From positions 1-64,000 of the forward strand of contig DAHUZE010000102.1 of assembly GCA_027306755.1 (NCBI GenBank): DNA of 64,000 nucleotides, written 5' to 3'. Source of the stretch: Acidimicrobiaceae bacterium (GTDB lineage Bacteria > Actinomycetota > Acidimicrobiia > Acidimicrobiales > RAAP-2). The notes beneath the pieces are model-generated. The model worked only from the letters and a program-made list of their open reading frames with translations. It had not been told where the DNA came from and made no database searches. A program made the position numbers and the translations under genes. Positions 3,853-23,933 of the stretch are shown here, piece by piece (position 1 is the first letter of the stretch; every line of letters begins with the position of its first letter).

Positions 3853-5048
3853 GCACGGGCCCGAGCATGGCCTCCCCCGCTGGCGCCACGACCGGCACCC
3901 CGCCTGACGCCCCGGCCGGCACCCCGTCTGGCGCGACTACCGGCGCCACACCCGGCGCCACGCCTGGCGCCCCGGGCCCTCCCGGCCGCATGCCGTGGGG
4001 AGCGCGCGCCGTGCTGGGCGTGGCGATCGCCGCGGTGGCTCTCGGCGTCCCGTTCTGGGTGGACGGGTACTGGCGCACCACGTTCGCCTTCGTGGTGATC
4101 GCGGCCATCGGGGCGCTCGGGCTCGACGTGCTCACCGGCTGGACGGGTCAGATCTCCCTGGGGCATGCCTTCTTCCTTGCCGTCGGGGCCTACGTGGGTG
4201 GGTACCTGGGAGCCCACCAGGGCCTCTCGGCGGCGCTGTGGATCCCCGCCGCCGGGGCCGCCGCGGGAGTGCTCGGCGCGGTCGCCGGCCCCGCAGCTCT
4301 GCGACTGCGGGGGCTGTACCTGGCCATCGTCACCATCGGGCTGGTCTACATCGGCTACTACGTCCTGCAGACGTGGACAGGCTTCTCCGGCGGCCCCGGG
4401 GGCGAGTCCCTGCCGCCGGTGACCTTCGGGTCCTGGAACTTCGCCCGCGGGGTGACGGTCGCCGGGCACGTCTTCACACGGGACCAGTGCTACTACTACC
4501 TAGCCCTCCTCCTCCTCGTGCTTGCCATGCTCTACGTGCGCAACGTCACCCGGTCGACGTTGGGGCGCAGCATGGTGGCGGTCAGGGACCGGGAGCTTGC
4601 AGCCGCGGTGCTGGGCGTGCACGTGGCCCGCACCAAGATGCGGGCTTTCGTGATCTCCTCGGTGCTGGCCGGCGTGGCCGGGGCCCTCTACGGATCGTTC
4701 CTCAGCTTTGCCGTGCCGGGCGACTGGGGACTCGTTCTCTCGATCGAGTACGTGGTGATGATCGTGGTCGGGGGGATGGCCTCGCTGTGGGGACCGGTCC
4801 TGGGCGCCCTGTTCGTGGTCGGCCTGCCGGCGCTGCTGCAGAACGTGTCCACAACGCTCACGTTCCTGTCCAACACCACCAGTGGCAACGGCCTGTCCCC
4901 GGCCGACGCGGCGGAGATCGTGTATGGCGTGCTGCTGGTGCTCTTCTTGCTGATCGAGCCGGGGGGGATCGTCGGGATCGGCCGGCGGATCGGGCGGCAA
5001 CTGGCCGGGCGGTTCGCCCGGGCCGGCGGTGGTGCGGGCGGGTCGTGA
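3849..5048 (+). CDS. livM: ABC transporter permease (LivM-like) with Thr/Pro/Ala/Gly repeat N-terminus
   Basis: GALGLDVLTGWTGQISLGHAFFLAVGAY typical of LivM; GTGA overlap with livH. Confidence 0.88.
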   Translation: MSTGPSMASPAGATTGTPPDAPAGTPSGATTGATPGATPGAPGPPGRMPWGARAVLGVAIAAVALGVPFWVDGYWRTTFAFVVIAAIGALGLDVLTGWTGQISLGHAFFLAVGAYVGGYLGAHQGLSAALWIPAAGAAAGVLGAVAGPAALRLRGLYLAIVTIGLVYIGYYVLQTWTGFSGGPGGESLPPVTFGSWNFARGVTVAGHVFTRDQCYYYLALLLLVLAMLYVRNVTRSTLGRSMVAVRDRELAAAVLGVHVARTKMRAFVISSVLAGVAGALYGSFLSFAVPGDWGLVLSIEYVVMIVVGGMASLWGPVLGALFVVGLPALLQNVSTTLTFLSNTTSGNGLSPADAAEIVYGVLLVLFLLIEPGGIVGIGRRIGRQLAGRFARAGGGAGGS

Positions 5049-5144
5049 GGAAGGAGGTGGCGAGAGGGGGCGCGTCCGGGCGGAAGCCCGCGGCGTGGGC
5101 ACGACGCCGTCCGGACGGGACGGCATGACAGACGGGACTACGAC

Positions 5145-6473
5145 GTGACCAAGAGCAAGAGCGAGATGAAGGGAAGAGGTGACCAGATGCAGAGACGGTT
5201 GACCAGGGTCGTCACCGCCGGGGCGCTGGCAGGGTGCGCGGCCATGGGCCTCACCGCCGTCGGGGGCGCTGCCGGGGCGTCGGGATCGTCCCCCGGGGTG
5301 ACACGGGCGCACAAGACCATCACGCTGGGTGTGATCACGCCGCTGTCGGGGGCGGCCGCGCTCATCGGAAAGCCCCTGACCGACGGCAACAAGGCGTACT
5401 TCGACTACCTCAACGCCCACGGCGGCGTGGACGGGTGGAAGATCAAGCTGGACGTCATGACAGACAACTACACAGCCACCAAGTCCGTCAGCGACTTCAG
5501 CAACGAGGTGACAAAGGTGCTCTTCGTGGCCCAGTCACTCGGAAGCCCCACCACCGCGGCCATCGAGTCCTCGGCCGCCCAGCAGAATGTCCTCCTCGGG
5601 ACGGCCGCCCAGGACTCCTCGTTCGTGAACCACAAGATCAACCTGGTCCAGGGCACGCCATACGCCGTCACAGTGGCGAACACGCTCTACTACGTCACCC
5701 AGACGCTCAAGAAGAAGGGCGCCACGTTCGCCATCACGTACAACAACACAGCGTACGGGAAGGACGGTCTGAAGGGCTACCAGGCTGCGCAGTCCGCCTA
5801 CCACTTCAAGACAGTGGCCAAGGAGACCGCGACAGCGACGGAGACGACATTCAACTCGCAGGCAAACGCCCTCAAGAGCTCGGGCGCCAAGTACGTGGTG
5901 CTCACCGTCCTCCCGCTCGAGGCGGCCACCCTCATCGGGACGGCGGCCCTGCTCGGGTACCACCCGCAGTGGATCCTGCAGGGCCCGGCGTGGTCCGAGT
6001 ACCTCATGACCAACAACGGCACCTTTTCGGGCACGCCCACCCCGGTCGAAGGGGCCATGCAGGGCGCGTGGGTCATGGGCTACATCGCCCCGTGGGGCAG
6101 CCACGGGCCGGGCATGACCCAGATGCTGTCGAGCACGTCCAAGTACATGCCGGCCCAGATCCCCGACGGCTACTACGAGTACGGCTACGCCCAGGCGTGG
6201 ATCGAGGGCCAGCTCCTGAAGAAGGTGGTGAGTAGCGGCCACATCACCCGCACAGCCGTGCTGAAGGCCAAGGAGCGCCTCGGGACGGTTTCCACGGGCG
6301 GCCTGTTGCCGGCGTCGGTCTACACGGCGAAGAACGGGCCGGCGGACCGGGAGACCGCGCTGTACAAGGTGACAAAGACAGCGGGGAAGTCCGGGTTCAC
6401 CAAGGAGATCAAAGGCTTCTTCACCTCCAAGCTGGGGCAGAAGATGACCTTCACATCGGCACCCACATCGTGA
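5145..6473 (+). CDS. ABC transporter substrate-binding protein (LivK/periplasmic-binding type 1)
   Basis: Signal-like N-terminus; ITLGVITPLSGAAALIGKPLTDGNKAYFDYLNAHGGVDGWKIKLDVMTDNY. Confidence 0.88.
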   Translation: MTKSKSEMKGRGDQMQRRLTRVVTAGALAGCAAMGLTAVGGAAGASGSSPGVTRAHKTITLGVITPLSGAAALIGKPLTDGNKAYFDYLNAHGGVDGWKIKLDVMTDNYTATKSVSDFSNEVTKVLFVAQSLGSPTTAAIESSAAQQNVLLGTAAQDSSFVNHKINLVQGTPYAVTVANTLYYVTQTLKKKGATFAITYNNTAYGKDGLKGYQAAQSAYHFKTVAKETATATETTFNSQANALKSSGAKYVVLTVLPLEAATLIGTAALLGYHPQWILQGPAWSEYLMTNNGTFSGTPTPVEGAMQGAWVMGYIAPWGSHGPGMTQMLSSTSKYMPAQIPDGYYEYGYAQAWIEGQLLKKVVSSGHITRTAVLKAKERLGTVSTGGLLPASVYTAKNGPADRETALYKVTKTAGKSGFTKEIKGFFTSKLGQKMTFTSAPTS

Positions 6474-14058: not shown

Positions 14059-14589
14059 TCAGCTCCTGCTGCCTGCCGCCTGCGGGACCGGCGGGAGTGT
14101 CGGCGCCGCCGCCCACGCCCGGCCGTCCCACCACATCGGCCGCCTGCCGGGCGCAACCGGGTACCAGCCCGCAGGTGGTGAGAGCGCCGCCACCGGCACC
14201 GGGGCTTCCGCGGGCGCATGGGCGGCCGGTGGGCGCGCCGGCAGCACATCTGGGTGGCGTGCCCGGCCGCGCTGGAGCCACGAACGGCCCATCGCCCACA
14301 GCCCCCAGAGCAAGAGGACGGCACCACCGATGGCCACGGCCAGGCCGCCCACCAACGCCAGGCCCGGGTCCAGGCAGGCCGGCACGAAGGCGTGCGCCGC
14401 TCGCCCCGCGGCCGAGATCCCGACAGAGGCGCACCCCGTGGTCGCCCGAGCCGAGAAGTGGGCTGCCACCAGGCCGCCAACCGCGCCCATCGCCGCACCC
14501 GCAGCGACCACGACCGGCGGTCTCACCTCCTGCACCGTACTGCGGCCTTCTCCGGCCGGGGTGGACCGCGACCGGCCCGCTCCGCTCAA
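14059..14589 (-). CDS. Membrane protein with C-terminal DUF2510-like motif
   Basis: Two hydrophobic segments and PPAGWYPVAPGRRPMWWDGRAW near the C-terminus. Confidence 0.75.
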   Translation of the reverse strand: MSGAGRSRSTPAGEGRSTVQEVRPPVVVAAGAAMGAVGGLVAAHFSARATTGCASVGISAAGRAAHAFVPACLDPGLALVGGLAVAIGGAVLLLWGLWAMGRSWLQRGRARHPDVLPARPPAAHAPAEAPVPVAALSPPAGWYPVAPGRRPMWWDGRAWAAAPTLPPVPQAAGSRS

Positions 14590-15329
14590 CCAGGCGCGGT
14601 CACCGCTGCCGCCACGTCCCGTGCGCCCTTCACGAGCGCGTCGCTCCCGGCGGCGTCCAGCGTGGCGAAGGCTGGCGCAAGCAACTCATCGGTCAATGCG
14701 TCGGCTGCGTCCAGTTGGCCGCGCTCCCGGTCGCCCACTGTGGGGGCGTCCGATGCGCTCCATCCGAACAGCGCGAAATCGTCCGGCCGCCGCAAGAAGT
14801 GCGCCGTCCTCGGGGCCAGGCCGGACGCCCGGACTGCCAGGAGATGCGCGCTGCCGCGCAGCTCGCGGAGCTGGACCACCAGGTGCATGGCGCGCCCGGG
14901 GGCGTCCTCGGGGAGCGGCTCTGCAAGCATCCCGGCGAACAGCGCCAGCCCGGCCGGGTCGGCCGCGCCCACCACGCGCTCACCGGCATCGCAGAACGCC
15001 TCGAGCCCGGCGAGCCCGGCGAGGCGGGCACGCCCGAGAGCATGGGCACACGCCAGATGCTCACGACCGGCCTGGCGCGGAGCCAACACCGCCCGGGCCG
15101 AGTCCCACATCCGGGCCAGCAAGGAGGGCTCGAAGTAGCCGAAGGCACTGGCGACGACCGGTGCCTCCACGTCGCCCAGGACGCCGCCCCGCCCGAGGAA
15201 GTAGAAGCGGAAGCCGTCCAGGCCCAGCTCCCTGCCCCTGGCGACCGTCTCGGGCGTGAAGTAGAAGGCGGCGCCCGCCTTGGCGGCGTGCGGCGCGATC
15301 TCCGACATCGTGGTCTCGGCAACGGTCAC
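14586..15329 (-). CDS. SCO6745-family-like protein
   Basis: APHAAKAGAAFYFTPETVARGRELGLDGFRFYFLGRGGVLGDVEAPVVASAFGYFEP resembles SCO6745 family proteins. Confidence 0.6.
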   Translation of the reverse strand: MTVAETTMSEIAPHAAKAGAAFYFTPETVARGRELGLDGFRFYFLGRGGVLGDVEAPVVASAFGYFEPSLLARMWDSARAVLAPRQAGREHLACAHALGRARLAGLAGLEAFCDAGERVVGAADPAGLALFAGMLAEPLPEDAPGRAMHLVVQLRELRGSAHLLAVRASGLAPRTAHFLRRPDDFALFGWSASDAPTVGDRERGQLDAADALTDELLAPAFATLDAAGSDALVKGARDVAAAVTAPG

Positions 15330-20613: not shown

Positions 20614-21570
20614 ATGGGCCGGCTCCGCCGGGCTCCCGGGGTGACGATGGTGCCGGCCTCGATCCGGGTTGGCGGACGCAACCTGCAGTTCGCGGTGTCC
20701 GACAACGTGGACGCCCACGGCCCGGACGGCCCGGGCACGCCCCCGCTGTGGGCGGTGAACGTGCACGGCTACTTTGCCGGCGGCCAGATGTACTGGCGGG
20801 AGAGCAGCTGGCTGGCCGACCGGTTCGGCTGGCGGGTGGTGAACCCGTGCCTCCCCGGATTCGGCGGGAGCGACCCGCTCGGGTGGCACGAGATCTCCAT
20901 CGGCACCCTGGCCGAGCAGGTGGCGCTCGTCGTCGACCACCTCGAGGCCGGCCCAGTGCTGCTGCTAGGCCACTCCATGGGCGCAGCGGTGGCGGTGCAC
21001 TACGCGCACCAGCGCGCCGAGGGCACCCTGGGCCTCGTCTACCGGGACGGGGTGGCCACGCCGGCGTGGCGGGACCGACGTGGCCCGGTCCAGACGGCGA
21101 TGGCCGCGGTCTCACCCAACATGGCGCCCTTCGCCGACATATTCGCCTCCTTCATCCTGGACACGCCCGATCTCCTCATCGGCCGGGCCCTTTCGACCGT
21201 GCGGGCGCTGGTCCCCGACGTCCGCCGGAATGTGCGAACCATGGGGTTGAGCTTCCCGATCGCCGCCATGCTGATGACCGTTGACCTCCGCGCCGAGGTG
21301 ACGGCGCTGGCCGAGGCCGGCCTCCCGATCCTGGCCGAGTGGGGCACCTTCGACCACATCGTGGGGGCGGCCGCGGCGGAGGAATTCGAGCGATGCGCCT
21401 CCACCACGGTGCAGTGGGTGCCGGGCGGCCACTCCTGGATGCTGGCCCGGCCCCAGGGTCAGGCCGACGTGCTGGCCCGCCTCGAGGTCGGCCAGCAGTT
21501 CTGCTCCAGGGTGGCGGACCGCCACCGCACCGGCACCTCCGGGGCGCGCCCGCTGCGTCAGGTTCGCTGA
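20614..21570 (+). CDS. Alpha/beta hydrolase
   Basis: NVHGYFAGGQMYWRESSWLADRFGWRVVNPCLPGFGGSDP, VLLLGHSMGAAVAVHYA; C-terminal GGHSWM. Confidence 0.85.
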   Translation: MGRLRRAPGVTMVPASIRVGGRNLQFAVSDNVDAHGPDGPGTPPLWAVNVHGYFAGGQMYWRESSWLADRFGWRVVNPCLPGFGGSDPLGWHEISIGTLAEQVALVVDHLEAGPVLLLGHSMGAAVAVHYAHQRAEGTLGLVYRDGVATPAWRDRRGPVQTAMAAVSPNMAPFADIFASFILDTPDLLIGRALSTVRALVPDVRRNVRTMGLSFPIAAMLMTVDLRAEVTALAEAGLPILAEWGTFDHIVGAAAAEEFERCASTTVQWVPGGHSWMLARPQGQADVLARLEVGQQFCSRVADRHRTGTSGARPLRQVR

Positions 21571-23054
21571 GGCGGCGCCAACCGGACACCGGAACGCACC
21601 TGGGCCACCAGCCGGCCGAAGGCCGCGCCCGACGCCGCGCCCGAGCTGTCGACCAGTTGCCACGCCACTCCCGCGCCGGGCTCCGGCGTCACGGCGAACA
21701 GCCCCGTCGCCGCTCCCGCCCTCCCCGGCTCCGCCGGGCCGCCCAGGTCGCGGTAGCAGAGCCCGGCCACCGGCGTCCCGGCCCGCGCAGCGTCCACCGT
21801 CGCGGCTACCAGGGCCCGGAGGTACGAGGGGCGGTCCCACCCGTCCGGCCGGGCGCCGCACCCCGGTGGCATGGGCAACGACGCCTGGATCCAGACAGGC
21901 ACGCCGCCCCCCGCCGAGGCCAGGGCTCGGCACCATTCGACCAGGCCGTCGATGTCCGCCGGCGCGTCCCAGGGGGCGGTGCGGGCGGTGCGGGCCGTGG
22001 AGGACGTGCGGGCCGTGGAGGACGTAGGGGACGTGCGGGCTGCGAGGTCCGGCCGGGCGGCCCGGGCGGACGATCCCGGGGACCACACGATGGCCAGCCC
22101 GTCCATCGGTGCCGTCGCCGGGCGGTCGTACACGACGTCGAGCAGGCGCCGAGGCGTGGCCCGCGCCTGGCGGCCCCGGAGCCGGCCGGCCGGCCCGGGC
22201 CCGGCGCGGCCGTACGGGGAGAGGGCGGCGGCCAGCCGCCGGGTCGCCAGGTCGGCCATGCTTGCGGGGACGAGCTCGGCGTCGTGCGCCCGCCGGAGGC
22301 TGTCCACCCAGGAGTCCACGTCGCGGCGAACGACGCCCCGCACCGGTGCGGCCATCAGGTCCGCTGGGAGCCGGTGCCAGTCATAGGGGCCGGGAGCGGA
22401 CAGGCCCATGGAGACGACGGCGTCGTCCTGCAGCCGGTGGATGGCGTCGTAGGCCAGGACGTGGGCCGTGCAGAGGTTGTCAAGCACCGCCCAGGCGTCG
22501 GACGCGGCCAGCACGCGGCCGGGCGGGACGTGCCCGCCGACCCAACCGGCCAGGGCGGCCAGGTTGGGCCGCAGGACCGTCACCCAGTCCCGGCAGGCTC
22601 CGCCCAGGGCCTGGGCCACCCGCGCCGCGTGACGGGCAAATCGGTCCGGGCTGCCCGGCGTCAGCCAGAACTCGGCCCCCAGCCACTCCGGGTGGGCCAG
22701 GTCGTGCAACGTAGCCACCGGCACCATGCCGCGCTCGGCGCACCCGGCCATGGTGCGGGCGTAGCGCGCCAGGGCATCGGTGTCGACCCCGTCCGGCGAG
22801 GGCTCGACGCGCGCCCATTCCAAGGGCAGCACCAGCACCTCGCAGCCGGCGCCCGCGGCCCTGTCGAGCGCCGCCTCGGGGTGCTCCCATACGTCGGCGC
22901 CGAGCCCGGCCGGCGGGACGCGGCCGGTGCGCTCCCACGACCACCACTGGTTCTCCGGCTGCCCGGGGCCGTTGAAGCCGCCTTCGGCTGTCGCCGTCAC
23001 GACCGCGCCGAAGAGGATCCCGGCGGGGACCAGGCCGCCCGCGTGGTCCGCCAT
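21558..23054 (-). CDS. Glycoside hydrolase family 1-like protein lacking both catalytic Glu residues
   Basis: GH1-like VVTATAEGGFNGPGQPENQWWSWE, LPLEWARVEPSPDGVDTDALARYARTMAGCAERGMVPVATLHDLAHPEWL; NEP replaced by LRPN, TENG replaced by QASL. Confidence 0.72.
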   Translation of the reverse strand: MADHAGGLVPAGILFGAVVTATAEGGFNGPGQPENQWWSWERTGRVPPAGLGADVWEHPEAALDRAAGAGCEVLVLPLEWARVEPSPDGVDTDALARYARTMAGCAERGMVPVATLHDLAHPEWLGAEFWLTPGSPDRFARHAARVAQALGGACRDWVTVLRPNLAALAGWVGGHVPPGRVLAASDAWAVLDNLCTAHVLAYDAIHRLQDDAVVSMGLSAPGPYDWHRLPADLMAAPVRGVVRRDVDSWVDSLRRAHDAELVPASMADLATRRLAAALSPYGRAGPGPAGRLRGRQARATPRRLLDVVYDRPATAPMDGLAIVWSPGSSARAARPDLAARTSPTSSTARTSSTARTARTAPWDAPADIDGLVEWCRALASAGGGVPVWIQASLPMPPGCGARPDGWDRPSYLRALVAATVDAARAGTPVAGLCYRDLGGPAEPGRAGAATGLFAVTPEPGAGVAWQLVDSSGAASGAAFGRLVAQVRSGVRLAPPQRT

Positions 23055-23159
23055 GGCGACAGCATGGCACGCCCGCCGACCGGGGCCCCGGCGACCGGGG
23101 GCCGGCGACCGGCGTCGGGCGGCCAGCTAGCGTGCCCAGGGAACGGGAGGAGCGAGCAC

Positions 23160-23933
23160 ATGGCTGACGAAGTGCTGCGGGAGCGCCGGGGCAACGTGGA
23201 GGTCATCACCATCAACCGCCCGGAAGCCCGAAACGCCATCAACGGCGCGGTCAGCACGGGCATCTCGACCGCCATGGACGAGCTGGCCGAGGACCCGGAC
23301 GTCTGGGTCGTCATCCTGACCGGCAGCGGTGACAAGGCCTTTTCCGCCGGCATGGACCTCAAGGCGTTCGCCGCCGGCGAGGGGGCGACGGTGATGGGCG
23401 TTCCCGGCGGCTTCGGCGGCATCGCCCGGCGGGAGTTCCCCAAGCCGCTCATCGCGGCGGTCAACGGGTCGGCCCTCGCCGGCGGCCTCGAAGTGGCCCT
23501 CTCGTGCGACCTGATCGTGGCGGCGGACCACGCCGTCTTCGGGATACCCGAGGCCTCGCGGGGCCTCATCGCCGGGGCGGGGGGCCTGTTCCGCCTGCCC
23601 CGCCGGCTCCCGCTGGCGGTCGCCCTCGAGATGGCTCTCACCGCCGATCCCATAAGCGCCGAGCGGGCCCGGGAGCTGGGCCTGGTGAACCGGGTGGTCC
23701 CCCGCCACCAGCTGATGGACGAGTCGCTCGTGCTGGCCGAGCGGATCGCCGAGAACGCGCCGCTGGCGGTGCGCTACTCCAAGTCGGTCATGCTGCGGTC
23801 CCTGGGGGCCGACGACGCCACGGGGTGGCGCCTCACCGACGACGCCGTCGGGGCCGTCTTCTCCTCCCCGGACGCGATGGAGGGATCCGTGGCCTTTGCC
23901 GAGAAGCGGCGCCCCAACTGGCAGGGCCACTGA
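23160..23933 (+). CDS. Enoyl-CoA hydratase/isomerase (crotonase) family protein
   Basis: TINRPEARNAINGAV, GDKAFSAGMDLKAF, AVNGSALAGGLEVALSCDLIVAADHAVFGIPEASRGLI; GGGAGGA upstream. Confidence 0.92.
   Translation: MADEVLRERRGNVEVITINRPEARNAINGAVSTGISTAMDELAEDPDVWVVILTGSGDKAFSAGMDLKAFAAGEGATVMGVPGGFGGIARREFPKPLIAAVNGSALAGGLEVALSCDLIVAADHAVFGIPEASRGLIAGAGGLFRLPRRLPLAVALEMALTADPISAERARELGLVNRVVPRHQLMDESLVLAERIAENAPLAVRYSKSVMLRSLGADDATGWRLTDDAVGAVFSSPDAMEGSVAFAEKRRPNWQGH

Follow-up and report, generated by a model that had tools for sequence, protein, structure and literature searches.

Locus and GH1 membership

The window, that is the whole 64,000-nucleotide stretch of DNA analysed here, contains a gene for a protein related to the GH1 beta-glucosidases, placed between genes for an alpha/beta hydrolase and an enoyl-CoA hydratase/isomerase (Table 1). 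Within the genus (g1, 13 genomes) and in many members of the family, a TatA-like gene and cytochrome oxidase genes lie near the GH1 gene on the enoyl-CoA hydratase side, with the other side often holding an alpha/beta hydrolase gene and an ABC-2 transporter. As this locus is common to genus and family, the loss described below occurred in place, and a recent horizontal acquisition was not supported. Promoter and terminator scans found nothing, and the neighbour genes of the distant active-like relatives gave no clear functional lead. LmbE-like deacetylase genes (HAHPDDE, recognized by eye) were seen near active-like GH1 genes in two families (L054 of G132, 14165–14980; L076 of G147, 4625–5419), which may be coincidence.

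Table 1. Genes, motifs and pocket positions at the locus, with positions counted in the window
Feature	Position	Strand	Remarks
Alpha/beta hydrolase gene	20647..21570 (start approximate)	+	Convergent; many relatives also have it close to their GH1 gene
Candidate GH1-derived pseudoglycosidase gene	21558..23054	-	498 aa, ATG start, open frame without internal stop
P443 at the Trp409 position	21726..21728	-	Residue role from PMC4322223
R435 at the Trp401 position (sugar stacking)	21750..21752	-	Residue role from PMC4322223
Nucleophile motif position	21876..21887	-	E-N-G-M of active-like relatives reads Q390-A391-S392-L393
Low-complexity tandem repeat, units of 9/18/27 bases	21971..22040	-	Encoded loop is rich in T/S/A/R and lies between beta6 and beta7
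S325 at the Tyr295 position	22080..22082	-	
Residues 121–240 (~beta3/alpha3 to beta5)	22335..22694	-	Most conserved region among the genus sequences; its two halves average 0.76 and 0.69 identity
Acid/base motif position	22563..22574	-	N-E-P-N of active-like relatives reads L161-R162-P163-N164
D118 at the His121 position	22701..22703	-	Asp in 11/11 aligned genus sequences; His in 62/62 active-like
T22 at the Gln20 position (subsite −1 contact)	22989..22991	-	Main-clade sequences of the genus have Arg
Divergent intergenic region separating the GH1-derived gene from the enoyl-CoA hydratase gene	23055..23159	.	105 bases
Enoyl-CoA hydratase/isomerase gene	23160..23933	+	Head-to-head neighbour conserved across the genus and many family members

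The GH1 pattern noticed in an earlier sequence-only reading was confirmed by profile search, the Pfam family Glyco_hydro_1 (PF00232) matching residues 10–225 with an E-value of 1.1e-14 (54.2 bits vs a cut-off of 22.6). A phmmer search against the PDB gave 4e-15 to the beta-glucosidase 3cmj, with the WVTHNEPM of this enzyme lying opposite WVTVLRPN of the window protein in an ungapped stretch, and the barrel motifs EGG, EWAR-EP and WVT--PN occur in the order seen in GH1 beta-glucosidases. With TIGR03356, the GH1 beta-glucosidase equivalog, the protein scored 53.5 bits, which is under the curated cut-off of 478.5. Its C-terminal half fell below detection by the Pfam and PDB profiles and was placed via full-length relatives, to which the window protein is ~40–50% identical; one of these (L003, 45% identity) matches solved GH1 enzymes at NEPN and VENGM. 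A chance resemblance to GH1 was ruled out by the Pfam match, the PDB match and the full-length relatives. An AlphaFold model made from two sequences only (pLDDT 41, pTM 0.37) was too poor to show the pocket, and the placement of the motifs at the strand ends consequently rests on the alignment. A fold search with this model, which also uses the sequence, returned only GH1 proteins as top matches, with a TM of just ~0.35.

Catalytic motifs and sugar-binding pocket

Both catalytic glutamates had been reported as gone in the sequence-only reading, and no Glu was found at either position here; the coordinates it gave for LRPN (residues 161–164) and QASL (390–393) were exact. The acid/base Glu at the end of beta4 is replaced by Arg162 (NEP to LRP), with Leu161 in place of the preceding Asn, and the nucleophile Glu of (T/V)ENG at the end of beta7 is replaced by Gln390, no acidic residue being present in the motif. 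In the family alignment VENGM faces IQASL, an arrangement which includes a one-residue gap in strand beta7; without this gap the nucleophile column would be Ala, not Gln, and PVWIQASLPMPPG holds no Glu or Asp either way. The active-like relative G016 has a one-residue gap at the same place with ENG intact, and the gap in the window alignment is therefore reasonable. The sister gene (L002/L031, G003), which is 66% identical to the window gene and comes from another genome assembly, has Gln and His in place of both Glu. A sequencing error is therefore unlikely, and it was rejected along with a wrong frame, the complete copies being open. By the known mechanism of retaining GH1 enzymes, the window protein is not expected to act on glycosides.

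Ten pocket positions were read in each sequence of an alignment of 89, with the canonical set QHNEYENWEW present in 62 of them, some being second copies from the same genomes. Among these positions, Tyr295 is a pocket residue of GH1. The roles of Gln20, His121, Asn165, Glu166, Glu354, Trp401, Glu408 and Trp409 in subsite −1 are described from the structure of Halothermothrix orenii BglA (PMC4322223). The ten positions read T, D, L, R, S, Q, A, R, E, P in the window protein and T, D, L, Q, A, H, A, R, D, P in the sister, with R, D, R, Q, variable, E, D, variable, D or E, P or L in the nine other sequences of the genus. The subsite −1 contacts Q20, H121, N165, W401, E408 and W409 are thus T, D, L, R, E and P in the window protein, and of nine near-invariant sugar-subsite residues only the Glu aligned with E408 matches, this being an uncertain alignment and perhaps a match by chance. 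Same-locus relatives in other genera, with the enoyl-CoA hydratase gene adjoining, keep all nine. The pocket was erased selectively: at a conservation threshold of 95% of the active-like sequences there are 90 columns, and none of the 9 in the pocket was kept in both the window gene and its sister, vs 49 of the 81 others (Fisher p=0.0005).

The main clade has R22, D118, R161, Q162 and D391 fixed at pocket sites which are nearly invariant in the active-like relatives, a set that resembles a new pocket rather than random erosion. Most of the main-clade pocket residues are altered again in the window gene and its sister (Thr22, Leu161, Arg/Gln162, Gln/His390, Ala391). Because the sugar contacts have been lost too, the sequences do not favour a lectin-like role for the old subsite −1. 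The earlier suggestion of a protein with no retaining activity and perhaps another role is broadly supported by these sequences, with simple glycoside binding in the old pocket being less likely than it implied.

Distribution, order of loss and constraint

A protein search across 198 related genomes gave matches to the window protein in 160, and the gene was present in all 13 genomes of the genus, the complete copies having open frames. Among the 11 aligned genus sequences, the window gene and its sister alone lack both catalytic Glu; the main clade (9/9 sequences) has Gln for the acid/base Glu and keeps the nucleophile (VEDG). As to the conservation of LRPN and QASL, which the sequence-only reading had raised, these states are not conserved as such. 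A Pfam search found no second GH1 gene in the 13 genus genomes, some of them 58–93% complete, and gave one or more strong GH1 matches in most other genomes of the family. Modulation of an active GH1 paralogue by the window protein is unlikely, because none was found in the genus, several of whose genomes are incomplete.

The phylogenetic tree placed the genus in one clade (100/99) with G019, from another genus of the family, as its sister (100/99). In the G019 protein (L049, 8993–10174) the sugar contacts are lost, the acid/base Glu is kept (HEP) and the nucleophile position is Asp (DDG), and it is a possible intermediate in the loss series. The simplest reading, obtained by parsimony with few intermediates, would be that the sugar contacts were lost first, the acid/base next at the base of the genus, and the nucleophile last, on the branch that leads to the window gene and its sister in G003, with the Asp of G019 as a separate change. 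Over the tree, parsimony required at least five changes at the acid/base and at least four at the nucleophile. Two sequences from a different family of the order (G128 and G184), nested among active-like sequences, lost both Glu independently, with DQL as the acid/base motif and GVDG or VTGD as the nucleophile motif. These GH1-like proteins (L104 of G128, 1345–2475; L105 of G184) are of ~410 aa. Erosion of the pocket was partial in G019, G016 and G069, the last having HGAN as its acid/base motif, and similar to that of the window gene in G022. This G022 copy (L071, 6158–6997; L116, 3158–3997) lies at the same locus in another genus and keeps the acid/base, with SGAA at the nucleophile motif. 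It should also be noted that a second, more distant set of GH1-like paralogues in the family, on long branches (L108–L115; G030b, G064b, G039b, G066, G057b, G021b, G050b and G029) has degenerate catalytic motifs, mostly both of them (e.g., VDPVR, FID-G).

At codon positions 1, 2 and 3 the window gene differed from its sister at 111, 104 and 214 sites (p=1e-12 against one third), with the third-position excess found in every segment of the gene. This bias shows purifying selection along the length of the gene. The dN/dS (NG86) was 0.24–0.47 in genus pairs above 55% identity, values which are rough at ~75% GC. The earlier description of a long, intact ORF without the appearance of a decayed pseudogene held in view of the open frame, the presence in 13/13 genus genomes and this selection. 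Distance ratios were higher than in active-like relatives for both GH1/ECH (2.51 vs 1.74) and GH1/COX1 (4.53 vs 2.48), so that, scaled to two neighbouring genes, the gene evolves ~1.4–1.8 times faster; this fits constraint that has been relaxed in part. Conservation within the genus is lower in the C-terminal half (0.47–0.56), and lowest in residues 321–385 and at the C-terminus. The tandem repeat in the loop codes for a TARTSSTARTARTA-like stretch, and that form is absent from the sister gene.

Possible roles and comparison with known systems

It is fairly likely that the window gene encodes a non-hydrolytic, repurposed GH1 barrel, or pseudoglycosidase, kept by purifying selection for a different role. 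The ancestor would have been an ordinary GH1 enzyme, inherited vertically at an unchanged chromosomal place, from which a single-domain barrel incapable of retaining hydrolysis may have arisen, its acid/base, nucleophile and subsite −1 being gone as judged from the sequence. On the tree, the sugar-contact residues and the acid/base would have gone before the nucleophile, with the gene presumably retained afterwards for its other role. The constraint remaining on the barrel and on residues 121–240 suggests, as speculation, the binding of another ligand or partner; a different ligand or a protein partner might be bound via the rebuilt pocket together with the conserved beta3-alpha4 face formed by these residues.

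A rather unlikely alternative is that GH1 activity became useless in the lineage and the pocket eroded, with the gene now under weak leftover constraint and heading to loss. Such slow decay would agree with the faster scaled evolution, the weakly conserved C-terminal half, the repeat expansion in the loop and the similar same-locus erosion of G022, partial in G019, G016 and G069, but it sits poorly with a gene which is present in 13/13 genus genomes, is open in its complete copies and has a third-position excess in each segment. The new pocket-site residues fixed across nine sequences and the high conservation of residues 121–240 in the genus also argue against it. TIM barrels are commonly reused for new chemistry, and the barrel could be running a non-glycosidase reaction with other residues, such as the invariant Asp118 or the Arg/Gln at the old acid/base site. 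The charged or polar set fixed in the main clade (Arg22, Asp118, Arg161, Gln162 and Asp391, with Glu390 kept) speaks for this, but the window gene and its sister have since changed most of that set. No motif for a cofactor or metal was recognised in the protein, its structural model is of low confidence, and new catalysis is improbable. It is highly improbable that a special glycoside is still cut, with the part of the missing Glu taken by other carboxylates or by the substrate itself. Myrosinases do work without the acid/base Glu, and the main-clade proteins, which keep the nucleophile (VEDG), could retain some activity. The window protein, however, is also without the nucleophile and has lost the sugar-holding residues of subsite −1 (roles from PMC4322223). 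The reading of a repurposed, non-hydrolytic barrel is preferred.

The usual picture of a pseudoenzyme is that of a duplicate with an active copy next to it. In this genus no other GH1 gene was found, and the one that by its sequence has lost activity stands at the ancestral locus itself. Living intermediates show an intact pocket, contacts lost with the acid/base kept, the acid/base lost with the nucleophile kept, and both lost. This gives a natural series for testing the order of change from enzyme to non-enzyme and what keeps the gene alive afterwards. Tentatively, the genus may have turned its GH1 barrel, at the original locus and with no active copy remaining, into a protein with a new pocket and function (ligand binding or chemistry), a change of which living intermediates survive; similar conversions may have occurred independently in other lineages of the order. 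The pseudoglycosidase is in itself an already known kind of protein, seen here in a bacterium and with an unusually clear evolutionary series; a literature search for bacterial GH1 pseudoenzymes, with incomplete coverage of papers, found none.

The window protein shares common descent with the GH1 beta-glucosidases (PF00232; 3cmj, 4hz6, 6z1h and 1od0), and other genera of the family have a gene with intact motifs at this locus, but it differs from these enzymes in having neither catalytic Glu and almost none of the subsite −1 contacts. In plant myrosinase the acid/base Glu is Gln and the nucleophile is kept, a state shared by the nine other genus sequences and not by the window protein, which has also lost the nucleophile; the genus differs further from myrosinase in the loss of other sugar-contact residues. 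The GH1 domains of alpha- and beta-klotho have no catalytic glutamate and are described as pseudoglycosidases acting by binding, the GH1 pocket serving, without catalysis, to bind other proteins (PMC10628560, PMC7828330). A GH1-like domain without catalytic Glu is common to klotho and the window protein, their relation being only via shared GH1 ancestry. Klotho, however, has tandem GH1 domains in animal membrane receptors, whereas the window protein is a single bacterial GH1 stretch of 498 aa with no membrane segment evident by eye in its sequence and with its pocket contacts more thoroughly lost. YKL-39, a GH18 pseudoglycosidase, keeps its fold without catalysis and still binds glycans (PMC7828330); it resembles the window protein as a non-catalytic glycosidase fold but belongs to a different family, and only in the window protein are the sugar contacts gone.
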